Shown here piece by piece: positions 5,265-11,951 of a stretch of 42,466 nucleotides of DNA. The notes under the pieces are model-generated. The model was not told the origin of the DNA and ran no database searches. It saw only the letters and a program-made list of their open reading frames with translations. The stretch comes from Acidobacteriota bacterium (lineage in GTDB: Bacteria; Acidobacteriota; UBA6911), in the NCBI GenBank assembly GCA_016933615.1, contig JAFGAO010000115.1, forward strand, positions 1 to 42,466, in the 5' to 3' direction. Positions within the stretch are counted from its first letter, which is position 1. The number at the start of each line of letters is the position of its first letter. Both the position numbers and the translations under genes were made by a program.

Positions 5265-6227
5265 TCAGACCGCTTCGATGGTCGAAGGTGGCTTGGTCGC
5301 GATATTGTAGGTGACGCTGACAACACCCGGCACTTCCCCCATGATCCCGGCCGCGATCTTTTCCAGGACCTCAAACGGAAGCCGGGTCGGGCTTGCCACC
5401 CGGGCATCCGTGCTTTCCCAGCAGCGCACTTCGATCTGCTGGCCGAATTCCCTTTTCCCGTCGCGAATGCCGGTGACCCGGTCCTCGTGGAGAATCGCCA
5501 TATACTGGAAGGCCCCGGTATCCCTGAGCAGGTTTTCCACCACCGCGGTCGCCTTCCTGACGGTGGCGATGCGCTCCGGGTTCGCTTCGCCGATCACGCG
5601 GGCCGAGAGCGCCGGTCCGGGGAAAGGGATGCGTTCGAAAAGCTCCGGGGGGAATCCCAGCGCCCGGCCCACTTTCCTGACTCCGTCCTTGCGCAGACGG
5701 ATGAGCGGCTCGATAATTTTGTAGCCGAAGGCCTCCTCGGGATCGATGCCGAGCTGGGCAAAGACGTTATGCTGCCGCTTGATGCCGGCAACCGTTTCGT
5801 CGACGTCGGTCAGTATCGTCCCCTGCAGCAGGTATTTTGCGCCGCTTTCTTTGACGAGGCGGCCGAAAACATCACGGTAGAAGGTCTGGGTGATGGCCTC
5901 CCGCTTCTCTTCGGGATCGGTTATCCCCTCGAGGGCGGAGAAGAAATCCCGGCGGGCATCCACCAGGTCGACCGGGACTCCCAGCTCCCGGAAAAACCCG
6001 GCCACCCGCTCCGGTTCGCCTTCACGCATGAGGCCGTTGTCGATGAAAACGGTTTTGAGCCGCGTTCCCAGCGCCCGGTACCCGATCATCGTGACCGTGG
6101 ACGAATCCACGCCGCCCGAAAGAGCGTTGATCGCCGTCCCGTCCCCCACCGCGTCTTTGATTTCCCTGATGCGTTCCTCGATAAAACGATCCGCATCCAG
6201 TTCCTGTGCCGTAATTTCCTGGATCAT
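5265..6227 (-). CDS. guaA: GMP synthase ATP-pyrophosphatase subunit (stand-alone)
   Basis: This protein of about 320 residues corresponds only to the C-terminal part of bacterial GuaA, which is normally near 520 residues. The N-type ATP-pyrophosphatase loop SGGVDSS lies near residues 37-43. It is followed by VFIDNGLMR, LLQGTILTDVDE, IKRQHNV, and the GMP synthetase dimerisation domain starting at PFPGPALSARVIGE. The end (NIATKPPSTIEAV) matches the family KPP-x-TIE tail. The enzyme adenylates XMP and aminates it to GMP. The glutamine amidotransferase domain is absent, as in the two-subunit archaeal form, and no amidotransferase gene is in the window. AAGGAG is spaced eight bases from the ATG at 6227 and only two from the ATG at 6233, so 6227 is preferred. 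Confidence 0.88.
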   Translation of the reverse strand: MIQEITAQELDADRFIEERIREIKDAVGDGTAINALSGGVDSSTVTMIGYRALGTRLKTVFIDNGLMREGEPERVAGFFRELGVPVDLVDARRDFFSALEGITDPEEKREAITQTFYRDVFGRLVKESGAKYLLQGTILTDVDETVAGIKRQHNVFAQLGIDPEEAFGYKIIEPLIRLRKDGVRKVGRALGFPPELFERIPFPGPALSARVIGEANPERIATVRKATAVVENLLRDTGAFQYMAILHEDRVTGIRDGKREFGQQIEVRCWESTDARVASPTRLPFEVLEKIAAGIMGEVPGVVSVTYNIATKPPSTIEAV

Positions 6228-6477
6228 CGACATATCTCCTTTTCCCCGGGAACCGCCCCTCGGAGACGCCCCGGATCGCTATTGAACACAAAATTCCGCC
6301 CGGCTTTTTAAAGTTCAAAAGAAAAAGACGACTGCAATATTTATAACCTTCCGCGCCGACTTGCCACAAAAATCTGGGTCGTTGGTATTGGGGCGGGCCG
6401 GGATAAAACACCGAAGGCAAAAACCGAACCCGCTTCGGCGGGCCCTCGAATTCTCTTGATGTCGTCCGGATCCTTTA

Positions 6478-8176: not shown

Positions 8177-8396
8177 GCGCTCGATAGATTTATGGGATTC
8201 CCGATTGTTGGAACGCTTCGGTTCCCCAATAAATCCCTGAATGAATTCGTGCCGATCCGGCCCGACGCCAAATTATCCCGTTTCTGCTTGTAGGGCGGCA
8301 TGGGGTTGTGCTAAAAACAGCGAAATCAAGGATATATTGAACGGGAGCGTTCAGGAATCATCAATCGAAATAAAAGGATTGAAGGGAAGGAGAAAC

Positions 8397-10145
8397 GTGA
8401 AAAGAAAGCATCTAATAATAAGCTTGCTGCTGCTCGTCGCGGCGGCTGCAGCTTACACCGGACTGTCTCCGGATCAGACGCAGCTCCAGGCGGCCGATCA
8501 GCCCAAGATCACGGTCATGAACCCGGCCGTCACCAGCAAAATGGCGGACCGCGAGCCGTTGGGCCCCCGGCTCGACAATCTCGAAGGGAAAACGATCTAC
8601 ATGGTCGACATCAGCTGGGGCGGACCCGATGCGGCCCGCGTCGTTTTCGAAGAAATGACCGCATGGTTTGCCCAGAACATACCGACCGTCAAGACGGTCA
8701 TCAAAAGAAAAGCCGGGATGTACTCGCAGGACGATCCGCCGCTATGGAAAGAGATCGCCGCAAACGGAGACGCCGCCATCATCGGCGTATCCGGCTGAGA
8801 CGGCTGCACGTCGGCCGTGAGCCAACATGCAAAGATTCTCGAGAAAATGGGCATCCCGACTCTAGGCGCTGCGGGCGACAATGTCGTACGCTACGCCGTA
8901 GGATACAATTTCCAATACACAAACGGCATGCCGATCCGTTATATTGGAATCCCTTTCCCGGTTGCGGGGCAGCCGAGGGAAGTGCTTCACAGTTATGTTT
9001 TCGACAGGAACGACACACTGAGCGGCAAGCCGATGATGAAAGCCGTCGTCGACGCTTTAACCGCGCCGCCGACGCCGGAAGAAAAGATTTCAGGCCAGCC
9101 GCCGGAAGCGAAGGCGGAGCCTAGATTCCTGGCGCCCGATACGGCGGATAACCTGCAGCAGCTGTTCAAGGACAAGGACTGGACCGACTACAATCCCATC
9201 ATCCTTCCGACGGAAGAAAAGGTGAAGGAGATGCTCAAAGGAACCAGCCAGCCTCCTGACAAAGTCGTCAAGGTCATCTCCTGGCCGGGCGGAAACCGCT
9301 CCCTGACAGTTGAAAAGGTTGCCGTGTGCGCCGTAATGGCCGGGGCGAAGCCGAAGCAATTCCCGCTTATCCTGGCTGTTGCCATGTCGGTACCCTTCGG
9401 CAACTCGACCAGTTCCATGGCCAACATGATCCTGGTCAACGGACCCATCCGGAATGAACTCGAGATGAATTACCGGCTGAACGTCATGGGGCCCCACAAC
9501 GAGGTCAACTCGGTGGTGGGCCGCTGCTACACCCTGATGTCGAAGACGGCCGGAAACCTCCATTCAGGCAAAACGACCTTCAGCGGCCTCGGAAGCAACA
9601 TTCAGTACAACAACCTCTGCATCGCCGAAAACGAGGAAGCCCTGCCGGCGGGATGGGAACCCACCCACGTGCTCAAGGGATTCAAGGCCACCGAGAGCGT
9701 CGTCGCCGTCGGGACCGGCTGGAGCTACATCTCGAGCGTCGGCGAGGTTCAGCTGAAGTACCCGGTGCAGAACCTGATTCGCGACTACATGCGGTCGCTG
9801 ACCGGAATGGGAGCCACCGTCATCGTGACACCCGAGACCGCCGGCCTTCTCAGGGATGCGCAGGGATTCAAAACCAAGCGCGACCTCAGCGCCTGGCTGG
9901 CGAACAACGTGGAAAAAACCATCGGCTCCTACTGGGGCAACGGCGTTATCTCTACGATGAATACATCCATGGCACTCCAGGGCATGGAACCCTTGGCATC
10001 CCAGCTCAAGGCGGACCCTGAAACGATGATGAAGCCTTTCCAGGCGGGACAGGTGAACATTGTCGTGGCGGGCCAGGGACAGACCACCTGGTTTGTCACC
10101 GATTTCGGAGTCGGACGCGGCACACGGGTCGACAACTGGAGATAA
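8397..10145 (+). CDS. Exported UGSC-family selenoprotein (Sec134, UDGC motif)
   Basis: This is read as one gene of 582 residues through an in-frame TGA at 8796-8798. It starts at GTG 8397, four bases after AAGGAG. Residues 1-27 form a Sec-type signal peptide (MKRKHLIISLLLLVAAAAA). The UGSC-type domain follows: EGKTIYMVD, then IIGVSG-U-DGCTSAV around residue 134, then LEKMGIPT. Upstream and downstream parts share one frame with no other stop, and the join falls exactly at the family's redox motif U-x-x-C. The C-terminal 440 residues include LQQLFKDKDWTDYNPIILPT and VCAVMAGAKPKQFPLILAVA, both matched in the paralogue at 10281-11951. A hairpin fitting a bacterial SECIS lies just after the TGA. 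It probably acts as a periplasmic thiol/selenol oxidoreductase. Family and Sec assignment are strong; substrate is unknown. Naive gene calling would split it at the TGA. Confidence 0.85.
8796..8798 (+). other. In-frame TGA read as selenocysteine (Sec134)
   Basis: The TGA lies between codons for ...IIGVSG and DGCTSAV..., giving U-D-G-C. The paralogue has U-S-V-C at the equivalent place, and the family is named for U-G-S-C, so a selenol with a cysteine two residues on is the expected active site. The next possible start (GTG 8817) has no ribosome site, so re-initiation is unlikely. Confidence 0.85.
8802..8823 (+). promoter_or_regulatory. Candidate bacterial SECIS hairpin
   Basis: Three bases after the TGA, GGCT (8802-8805) pairs with AGCC (8820-8823) and CACG (8807-8810) pairs with CGTG (8816-8819). 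This leaves one bulged G (8806) and a five-base loop TCGGC. That is eight base pairs with one bulge inside the coding sequence. The bulge-stem-small-loop design and the position fit a bacterial SECIS that recruits SelB, although the bulged base is G and not the U of E. coli fdhF. Confidence 0.65.
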
Positions 10146-10280: not shown

Positions 10281-11951
10281 TTATCTCCACTCGTCGATAT
10301 TGATGGACCGGGTGGGCACCATGCCGCCCGCCATCCAGTAGTTGTTGTTGGACCCGCCGGTAACGACAACGTGGAAATTGCCGCCGCCCATGCCGAAACC
10401 GCCGGCTTTCCCTTTCGGCTTCGGCTGCGCCGATGCGCCCGTCACGTATTCGGTGAACTTATCCATCGTATCGTACCCGTCATCGGCGATGAAATTGGCG
10501 ATGGGAGGGCTCAAGACCAGCAGCGTCCCGAACAGATCGGGCGACTGCTGTTCGTAGATGTCCTTGGCAATTTTAGGGTAATCCATGACGGTCTGCCAGA
10601 CGTTGGCTTTCCAGTTCTTGGCGGAAAGAAGACCCCACCCAGTAAACAGCGTGACGACATTCTCGCCTTTCCGGAACCCTCTCCTGACCGAAAGCGGCTG
10701 GAAGGGGGACTTCTCTTCATTTTCGGCCATTATGAGAGCGAGCGCATTCTGGGCATTGCCTACAGTGCCCATGTAGGTCGTCCCGACTTTCCCGCAGTTT
10801 CCGCCGTTGATGGACAGCAGGTTCCAGGCTCTTCCTATGGCCGTATTGGCATGGGCATAGGGGCCTACGGCCCCCTCCTCGTAATTGAGCCCGATTTCGT
10901 CGCGGATGTCGCCGTTGATGACCGCGCCCGCCGCGAAGCCGTTGTCGGAAACATTCACGGCCGTCTGCCCGCTCGAACCCAGCGCCAGAATGACCGGGAA
11001 ATATTCCGGTTTGGCTCCAGCCATCACCGCATTGATGGCGGCCGTTTTCACCGTATAGGTCCATGTCTCGCCGGCCCCGGAACCCGGATTCATTCTTCCC
11101 AGCTGCTCGTCCGGATCGTGGCTGGTGGCCTTCAGCATTTCATCGACCAGTTCTTTGGTGGGAAGGATGACCGGCATGAAGTCGGTGTACCTCTTTTCGA
11201 GAAACAGCTGCTGAAGCTCGGCAGCCGTCCCGGTGTAGGCAGGCGGTCCCATATCGCGCTCTATCTGTCCTGTCTTGGTATCTTCGGGAGCCAAAGGCCG
11301 GGTGAGTTTATCAACGATTTCCTCGGCGACGGCTTTTCCTGTAAGCGGATTTTTGCCGTATACAACGGATTTGCGCAGCTGCTCGCCCGTTTTGGCCCAG
11401 ACAGGCCCCTGGATATATTGAACACGCATTCCAGGCATCCCTCTGAACCTGGAGACTCCTATCAACTGCTCTTCAAATTCGGCGAGAGCGACTGGTATGG
11501 CGGGTTTTCTTAATGTTGCTTCGAAATCTATCGCTTGCTCGGTGACCCCGGGCGCACAGACGCTTCAATGTCCGAGGGGAATGATCATGGCATCGGCCTT
11601 TTCCGCCATTTCATCCCACAGAGCCTGGTCCCTGCCTCCCATACCGCCTCGTTTATCCTTATAAACAAAGGTCGTATCAGGGAACTGTTCGCTGAATCCT
11701 TTTTGCATCTCCGCGCACAGAATGTTCGAGCCCGGATAGCCGTCATTCACGATATAGATGGTCTTGCCTTCTATCGCGTCCAGACGGGGCGCCATCGGTT
11801 TCAGTTCGATGGGAGGCGGCGTGCCCATCGGATTGAGCACGGTGAATTTTTCCGCGGATGCCGCCTGCGCCTGGTCGTTCCACGGCGGGAAGCCGCAGAA
11901 CAGGCCCAGGCAAATCGCTGTCATTGCAGCCGCAAACACATAGCGCTTCAT
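10281..11951 (-). CDS. Exported UGSC-family selenoprotein paralogue (Sec129, USVC motif)
   Basis: This is read as one gene of 556 residues through an in-frame TGA at 11565-11567. It starts at ATG 11951, eight bases after AAGGAGG. A signal peptide occupies about residues 1-31 (MKRYVFAAAMTAICLGLFCG). The UGSC-type domain has EGKTIYIVNDGYPG, then MIIPLGH-U-SVCAPGV around residue 129, then LRKPAIPV. The 34 codons between the TGA and the next ATG are open and continue the alignment with the paralogue at 8397-10145. Shared blocks include ELQQLF-x3-R/D-x-TD-x2-PVILPT, NAVMAGAKPEYFPVILAL and a C-terminal D-x-WR ending. A glycine-rich insert (GGFGMGGGNF) near the C-terminus is private to this copy. 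A periplasmic selenol/thiol redox protein of unknown substrate is inferred. The two genes converge on a shared terminator. Confidence 0.82.
11565..11567 (-). other. In-frame TGA read as selenocysteine (Sec129)
   Basis: On the reverse strand the TGA follows ...MIIPLGH and precedes SVCAPGV..., giving U-S-V-C. Its position matches Sec134 of the paralogue. By eye the downstream RNA gives only a weaker hairpin (CU-GUG pairing with CAC-AG across a ten-base loop), so the SECIS here is less certain than in the other gene. Confidence 0.78.

Follow-up and report, generated by a model that had tools for sequence, protein, structure and literature searches.

The window analysed here (contig JAFGAO010000115.1 of an Acidobacteriota genome bin, 42,466 nucleotides) carries on its plus strand a gene encoding 582 residues (8397–10145), which starts with GTG, ends with TAA (10143–10145) and contains a single in-frame TGA (8796–8798). 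A ribosome-binding-site-like AAGGAG lies upstream of the GTG start on the same strand (8387–8392). We read the TGA as selenocysteine 134 of a U-D-G-C motif. The sequence-only reading of this DNA had described one frame that passes through the TGA with no other stop, and a U-x-x-C motif in the context IIGVSG-U-DGCT. Translation recovers the 582 residues with U at residue 134, and confirms that one frame crosses the TGA. Facing this gene on the minus strand is a second, convergent paralogue (10281–11951) of 556 residues, also a predicted selenoprotein, with a USVC motif and an in-frame TGA at 11565–11567 (minus strand, residue 129). In three sister genomes (L050, L051 and L052) two convergent paralogues lie opposite a relative 72–74% identical to the window gene. 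The flanking genes encode what we take from its domains to be an HflX-like GTPase, and an ECF sigma factor with a FecR protein. The window also encodes, on the minus strand at 5265–6233, the C-terminal half only of a GMP synthase (322 residues; 296.2 bits to TIGR00884, whose cut-off is 338.75).

From base composition alone, the chance of 447 further open codons following the TGA is about 4 × 10−7. Compared with six close relatives, dN/dS is 0.083–0.174 after the TGA and 0.121–0.183 before it (computable for five of the six), ratios that are rough because synonymous sites are near saturation, and that indicate purifying selection both before and after the TGA. By scanning public contigs we obtained at least 591 pattern matches, 565 of them encoding a relative, and kept the best 80. 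Of these best 80 of at least 565 relatives, 63 have TGA at the site and 17 have Cys, and none has Trp. The sequence-only reading had suggested looking for members with Cys at position 134, and had named close homologues ending at the TGA position as evidence against it; none of the 80 ends there. The matched stretch has no further TAA or TAG in 79 of the 80, and one Cys form (L093) has a stop 94 residues past the site. This sequence was left out of alignment A3, which comprises 43 of the 80 loci, picked for spread, and the window protein, and was retained among the 80 best relatives and the 17 Cys rows of the hairpin comparison below. Neither C137 nor residue 134 varies in the 44 rows of A3. 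Viral contigs were scanned as well and yielded no relative.

The Cys forms belong to Alpha- and Betaproteobacteria, including Ramlibacter and Chelativorans, and to one unplaced proteobacterium. Cys is also found in plasmid relatives from Neorhizobium galegae and Acidovorax, and the N. galegae plasmid record loses its frame beyond mid-gene. A tree of 96 rows made with FastTree, from which L015 was excluded (as it was from alignment A1), requires at least three changes between Sec and Cys; the positions of the long branches L013, L014, L016 and L017 in it are unsure. The motif had been said to depart from the family name, UGSC. It is indeed UDGC, yet this is no oddity within the branch of the window gene, because U-x-G-C and U-S-x-C are frequent there.

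Two readings of the TGA other than selenocysteine have to be weighed against these results. If it were a true stop, there would be two separate genes, the second beginning at GTG 8817. A mechanical open reading frame does run from 8817 to 10145, and two haloarchaea encode the two domains of the protein separately. However, the haloarchaeal split comes after the entire UGSC domain and not at the active site, all 80 best relatives have Sec or Cys at the site, selection is similar on either side of the TGA and the hairpin described below covaries, so that we regard a true stop as very unlikely. Reassignment of TGA across the genome, for example to Trp, might be suspected from the sixteen copies with an internal TGA that this one genome contains, but is scarcely credible: TGA is the stop codon of 8 of the 21 putative neighbouring genes in the window, the internal-TGA paralogues L007 and L014 were read as also stopping at TGA, the alternative residue at the site in the best 80 relatives is Cys and never Trp, and the genome has the genes for selenocysteine. 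The latter were checked for in the bin (3.62 Mb, 298 contigs, 81.9% complete), where selA, selB, selC and selD are all present, on contigs different from that of the gene. The tRNA-Sec encoded by selC has the anticodon TCA (73.3 bits), SelB and SelA score 382.6 and 560.9 bits, and selD occurs twice (G000:C97, L034; G000:C203, L035), each time with one in-frame TGA. From the sequence evidence as a whole, we consider it close to certain that 8397–10145 encodes a selenoprotein.

A SECIS-like hairpin can be drawn at 8805–8831 (plus strand), with the apical loop CGTGA at 8816–8820, on the basis of covariation among 22 sequences of the clade. Judged by eye, nine of the ten counted pairs can form in the window sequence. 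Its own minimum-energy fold is a different structure, and the sequence is unremarkable against synonymous shuffles (z −0.6); on its own it is not convincing. An Rfam scan of the whole window gave no matches. Across the 22 clade sequences, from members of which the structure was itself derived, the hairpin has a five-base loop centred at +19 and 75.0% of its cells are paired. Covariation is 0.293 compared to 0.008–0.113 when the partners are slid by 1–3 columns, and none of 500 shuffles reaches this value. Two of the five measures made on this alignment are less clear, with 46 and 20 of 500 shuffles as high, and the four pairs of the lower stem fail in 6–13 of the 22 sequences.

We also compared Sec and Cys rows in the USxC branch, the protein sequences of which are similar at the hairpin. 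For the four inner pairs, 88.7% of cells are paired in 31 distinct Sec rows (alignment A5) against 52.9% in the 17 Cys rows (set A6); the outer stem pair is present in 28 of the 31 Sec rows and in 2 of the 17 Cys rows. Covariation in A5 is not above shuffles (500 of 500 as high), the stem varying little, and partners slid by −3 pair equally often (88.7%); in A6 the same slide pairs in 69.1% of cells, compared to 52.9% for the structure itself. Since slides and shuffles do not single out the A5 stem, only the contrast between Sec and Cys counts in this branch. When the predicted hairpins of all Sec sequences were pooled (79, namely the 63 relatives and 16 copies from the genome of the window), a loop centre at +19 was counted 43 times, against 2 times in the 17 Cys sequences. 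The mean z of the site stretch against synonymous shuffles is −0.83 for Sec and −0.05 for Cys (p 0.005, rough as are all the hairpin p-values because the 79 sequences are related), and that of a control stretch 150 bases on is −0.14 and −0.49, respectively. The pairing tests cover two groups that were formed after the folds had been viewed and that hold 58 of the 79 Sec sequences (22 and 36, becoming 22 and 35 once L015 was dropped), the other 21 falling outside them. In the clade of this gene, a covarying hairpin occupies the place expected of a bacterial SECIS element.

The product appears to consist of three parts, all encoded on the plus strand. Residues 1–34 or thereabouts (8397–8498) resemble a signal peptide, with a hydropathy of 2.97 and a helix predicted by AlphaFold2 at residues 3–20. 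The Sec-type signal peptide proposed earlier is thus borne out as signal-like by hydropathy, its periplasmic destination being a prediction only, and export of the product is plausible on sequence grounds. Residues 40–199 (8514–8993) form a UGSC domain, predicted to be alpha/beta with U134 opening a helix, which matches Pfam PF24696 at 58.4 bits (cut-off 25; E 1.3e-15), as do all 44 members of the alignment (E up to 0.1). The NCBIfam equivalog model of UGSC, NF041046, is matched at 43.3 bits, below its cut-off of 125; membership of a UGSC-like family therefore stands at the level of the Pfam domain and not at that of the equivalog. Residues 238–582 (9108–10142) make up a C-terminal domain delimited by comparison and by the AlphaFold2 model, which is encoded by a separate gene in two haloarchaea and has no Pfam match.

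The AlphaFold2 model, built from 44 sequences, has a pLDDT of 89.6 and a pTM of 0.85. In it strands and helices alternate and U134 opens the helix following the third strand, an order of elements from which the Sec domain would read as Rossmann-like. A thioredoxin fold was considered for the Sec domain and rejected on this predicted topology. For the whole model, a Foldseek search gave nothing at E 0.001 or better; by target TM-score the better look-alikes of the N-terminal domain are lumazine synthases (about 0.5, E > 0.001). The same holds for the model of the C-terminal domain (pLDDT 90.4), which had no match at E 0.001 or better. The top rows here were class I fumarate hydratases and Toblerone-fold cyclic amide hydrolases (TM about 0.2, rmsd 11–19 Å), a resemblance between predicted folds that we treat as a lead only. 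The best match in a sequence search of the PDB had an E of 0.32.

We considered whether the protein belongs to the selenoprotein B family of glycine, sarcosine and D-proline reductases. Among the 44 alignment members there are weak matches to GrdF (three), PrdB (two), GrdB, GrdH and the general model (one each), the best with an E of 0.0038, and in the window protein the GrdF match covers the U-x-x-C site. However, the window protein reaches 13.2 bits where the GrdF cut-off is 800, and unrelated models match about as weakly in the same scan. We hence think it improbable that the protein is a selenoprotein B.

The genome of the window has 17 matches to this family at E 0.01 or better, an eighteenth row at a looser limit being the end piece of another match. 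Sixteen carry TGA at the site, among them the convergent neighbour at 10281–11951. Their motifs are UDGC (three copies), USTC and USVC (two each) and, once each, UHGC, UWGC, UPGC, USSC, USQC, USLC, UGSC (L013), UGAA and UUGC; the seventeenth copy, L017, has neither Sec nor Cys there. A strongly hydrophobic start (hydropathy of at least 1.87) is found in 14 of the 17 and is absent in L004, L006 and L017. One of the sixteen TGA copies, L015 (G000:C44:6213–6821), has a TAA inside and has lost most of the C-terminal domain, which we take to indicate that genes arise and are lost in this family.

In a search of 60 genomes, 170 family matches fell, among the matches listed, in ten genomes of this genus: 18 in that of the window and 20, 14, 15, 14, 11, 19, 11, 24 and 24 in the other nine. 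These counts are approximate, as fragments may be included and some first-look candidates were left unscored in five genomes. The 50 genomes outside the genus gave, among the matches listed, 6 matches in 4 genomes. Matches without TGA are also present among those listed. Twelve sister-genome stretches were viewed, of which ten belong to the genus and were chosen as odd or as lacking a listed TGA. Eight sister-species copies (L143–L150) have no Sec at the active site and instead show sequences like SSSTTS (three), GGGSGK (one), LDTC (one) and the DMGTS of L017 (three). In the tree, the copies of the window's genome are spread across several branches that also hold other phyla. Because of this interleaving, much of the family's variety would be older than the genus, as the sequences suggest, with the proviso that phylum labels of bins can err.

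One paralogue has four in-frame TGAs, at residues 131, 132, 566 and 568, giving UUGC at the active site and a C-terminal UVU (L016, also L134; G000:C14:1103–2875). A copy in another species that is 88% identical to it (L135; G008:C289:13969–15741) has the same four. This form occurs in at least two of 297 genomes of the phylum, at most four candidates having been scored per genome. The 25 codons past the last TGA are 92% identical between the two copies (dN/dS 0.114), and by eye the tail of L016 resembles the C-terminus of other copies. Each TGA pair is followed in both species by a hairpin of 6–8 pairs that has a three-base loop and is placed at about +20 from the second TGA. The first hairpin does not stand out from synonymous shuffles (141 and 62 of 500 equally low), and the second does better (35 and 12 of 500). 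The four-Sec paralogue remains a candidate because no Cys form of the U-V-U tail was found. According to a 2026 review (PMC13188914), a small subset of multi-Sec families has two or three Sec residues, numbers that the four-TGA paralogue, if real, would surpass.

We tentatively suggest, as a possibility that stays well short of even odds, that this genus has multiplied one selenoprotein family to 11–24 or more copies as a set of extracytoplasmic selenium-based reductases, each tuned to a different substrate. The copies mostly have predicted export signals in the genome examined, the residues beside Sec vary and one member may have four Sec residues, features that are part of this suggestion. 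Reductive dehalogenases are likewise multiplied in organohalide respirers.

A gene for a thioredoxin-reductase-like flavoprotein (Pyr_redox_2) is found in 15 of the 80 loci, namely in 11 of the 17 with Cys and 4 of the 63 with Sec, a lower bound because the flanks of the loci are unequal. The copy at L122 has a CASC motif. Twelve of the 15 genes lie on the same strand as the family gene and within about 250 bases of it; the flavoprotein lies about 1.2 kb off on the opposite strand in L107 and L118, and about 2.3 kb upstream in L092. Clustering of neighbouring open reading frames was dominated by antisense frames of GC-rich DNA, the Pfam scan of neighbours was made on 20 hand-picked frames from Cys loci, and the reductase alone was taken further. 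We judge the likelihood of chance adjacency in Proteobacteria to be small. Seven genomes of the window's genus have one to three such flavoprotein genes each. The three matches in the window's genome are all on contigs without family copies, and in G006 and G007 one flavoprotein gene lies about 11 kb from a non-TGA copy. These placements speak against a general link, as does the consideration that a cytosolic reductase would be out of reach of exported copies.

The same three components are found in a row on plasmid pHTUR01 of Haloterrigena turkmenica, as a CGSC protein of 193 residues, a C-domain protein of 371 and a flavoprotein of 303, the last 39% identical to that of L122. Halalkalicoccus jeotgali has the CGSC and C-domain genes side by side, and the 13 kb viewed there contain no such flavoprotein; a second C-domain gene lies upstream of the pair on plasmid 2 (L155, 4894–5919). 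Since the split genes stay together in these haloarchaea, we regard the C-terminal domain as a natural partner for the Sec or Cys domain.

The results as a whole support the interpretation in the sequence-only reading of an exported, UGSC-like selenoprotein, and are in our judgement very probably best explained by one exported two-domain selenoprotein of the UGSC family, which would act as a thiol/selenol reductase. SelB with Sec-tRNA would decode UGA 134, the protein would be exported, and U134 and C137 would form a reversible selenenylsulfide at the start of the helix. The substrate would be a small molecule bound to the C-terminal domain. The electrons would, in some relatives, probably come from NAD(P)H by way of the thioredoxin-reductase-like flavoprotein of the adjoining gene, and paralogues with different active-site residues may serve different substrates. 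Alternatively, the Sec of a real selenoprotein could bind a metal or metalloid, or trap an electrophile, with no reductase cycle. This would suit the paralogue without the second Cys (UGAA) and the sister-species copies with neither Sec nor Cys, and PMC13188914 states that in other families Sec may coordinate a metal. It fits poorly with the lack of variation at C137 and residue 134 across the 44 aligned rows, and with the recurrence of a disulfide-reductase-like gene beside relatives, and we consider it unlikely. The expansion in the genus, the Cys forms of cultured aerobes (Ramlibacter, and the plasmid of Neorhizobium galegae), the recurring reductase neighbour and the divided archaeal version open the family to testing: they offer a probable electron donor, two subunits that could be purified, and active-site residues that differ naturally from copy to copy. 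The unusually large gene set of this uncultured genus hints at a set of selenium-based enzymes.

The UGSC family dates back in the literature to 2008 or earlier, and continues to be listed as uncharacterised in function (PMC2398784, PMC13188914). Independently of UGSC, PMC13188914 describes a Methylomirabilota bin with 63 selenoprotein genes, so that selenoprotein-rich bins as such are already known. The parts of PMC13188914, PMC2398784, PMC9312934 and PMC7539508 that were accessible make no mention of the Acidobacteriota expansion, the reductase neighbour or the four-Sec forms. The family is thus a known one, the fused, exported and lineage-expanded form of which we did not find described in a search that left preprints and most subscription journals outside its range. 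With the UGSC family (PF24696, NF041046) the window protein shares the Sec domain, the U-x-x-C site and the existence of Sec and Cys forms; it differs in its UDGC motif, its score below the equivalog cut-off, the fused domain of about 345 residues, the signal-like N-terminus and the many copies per genome. The UGSC/Unknown_1 fusion from Global Ocean Sampling (PMC2398784) likewise joins UGSC to an uncharacterised conserved domain, a likeness of description. That paper expects a Trx-like fold for UGSC, unlike the window model, which shows none. GrdB and PrdB have the U-x-x-C site in common with the window protein and give weak profile matches, none of them significant. Glycine and D-proline reductases couple to a thioredoxin-type system. 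A further parallel is the run on pHTUR01, where the CGSC protein, the C-domain protein and the flavoprotein correspond to the components considered here, but, unlike the window gene, are encoded separately and with Cys in place of Sec.
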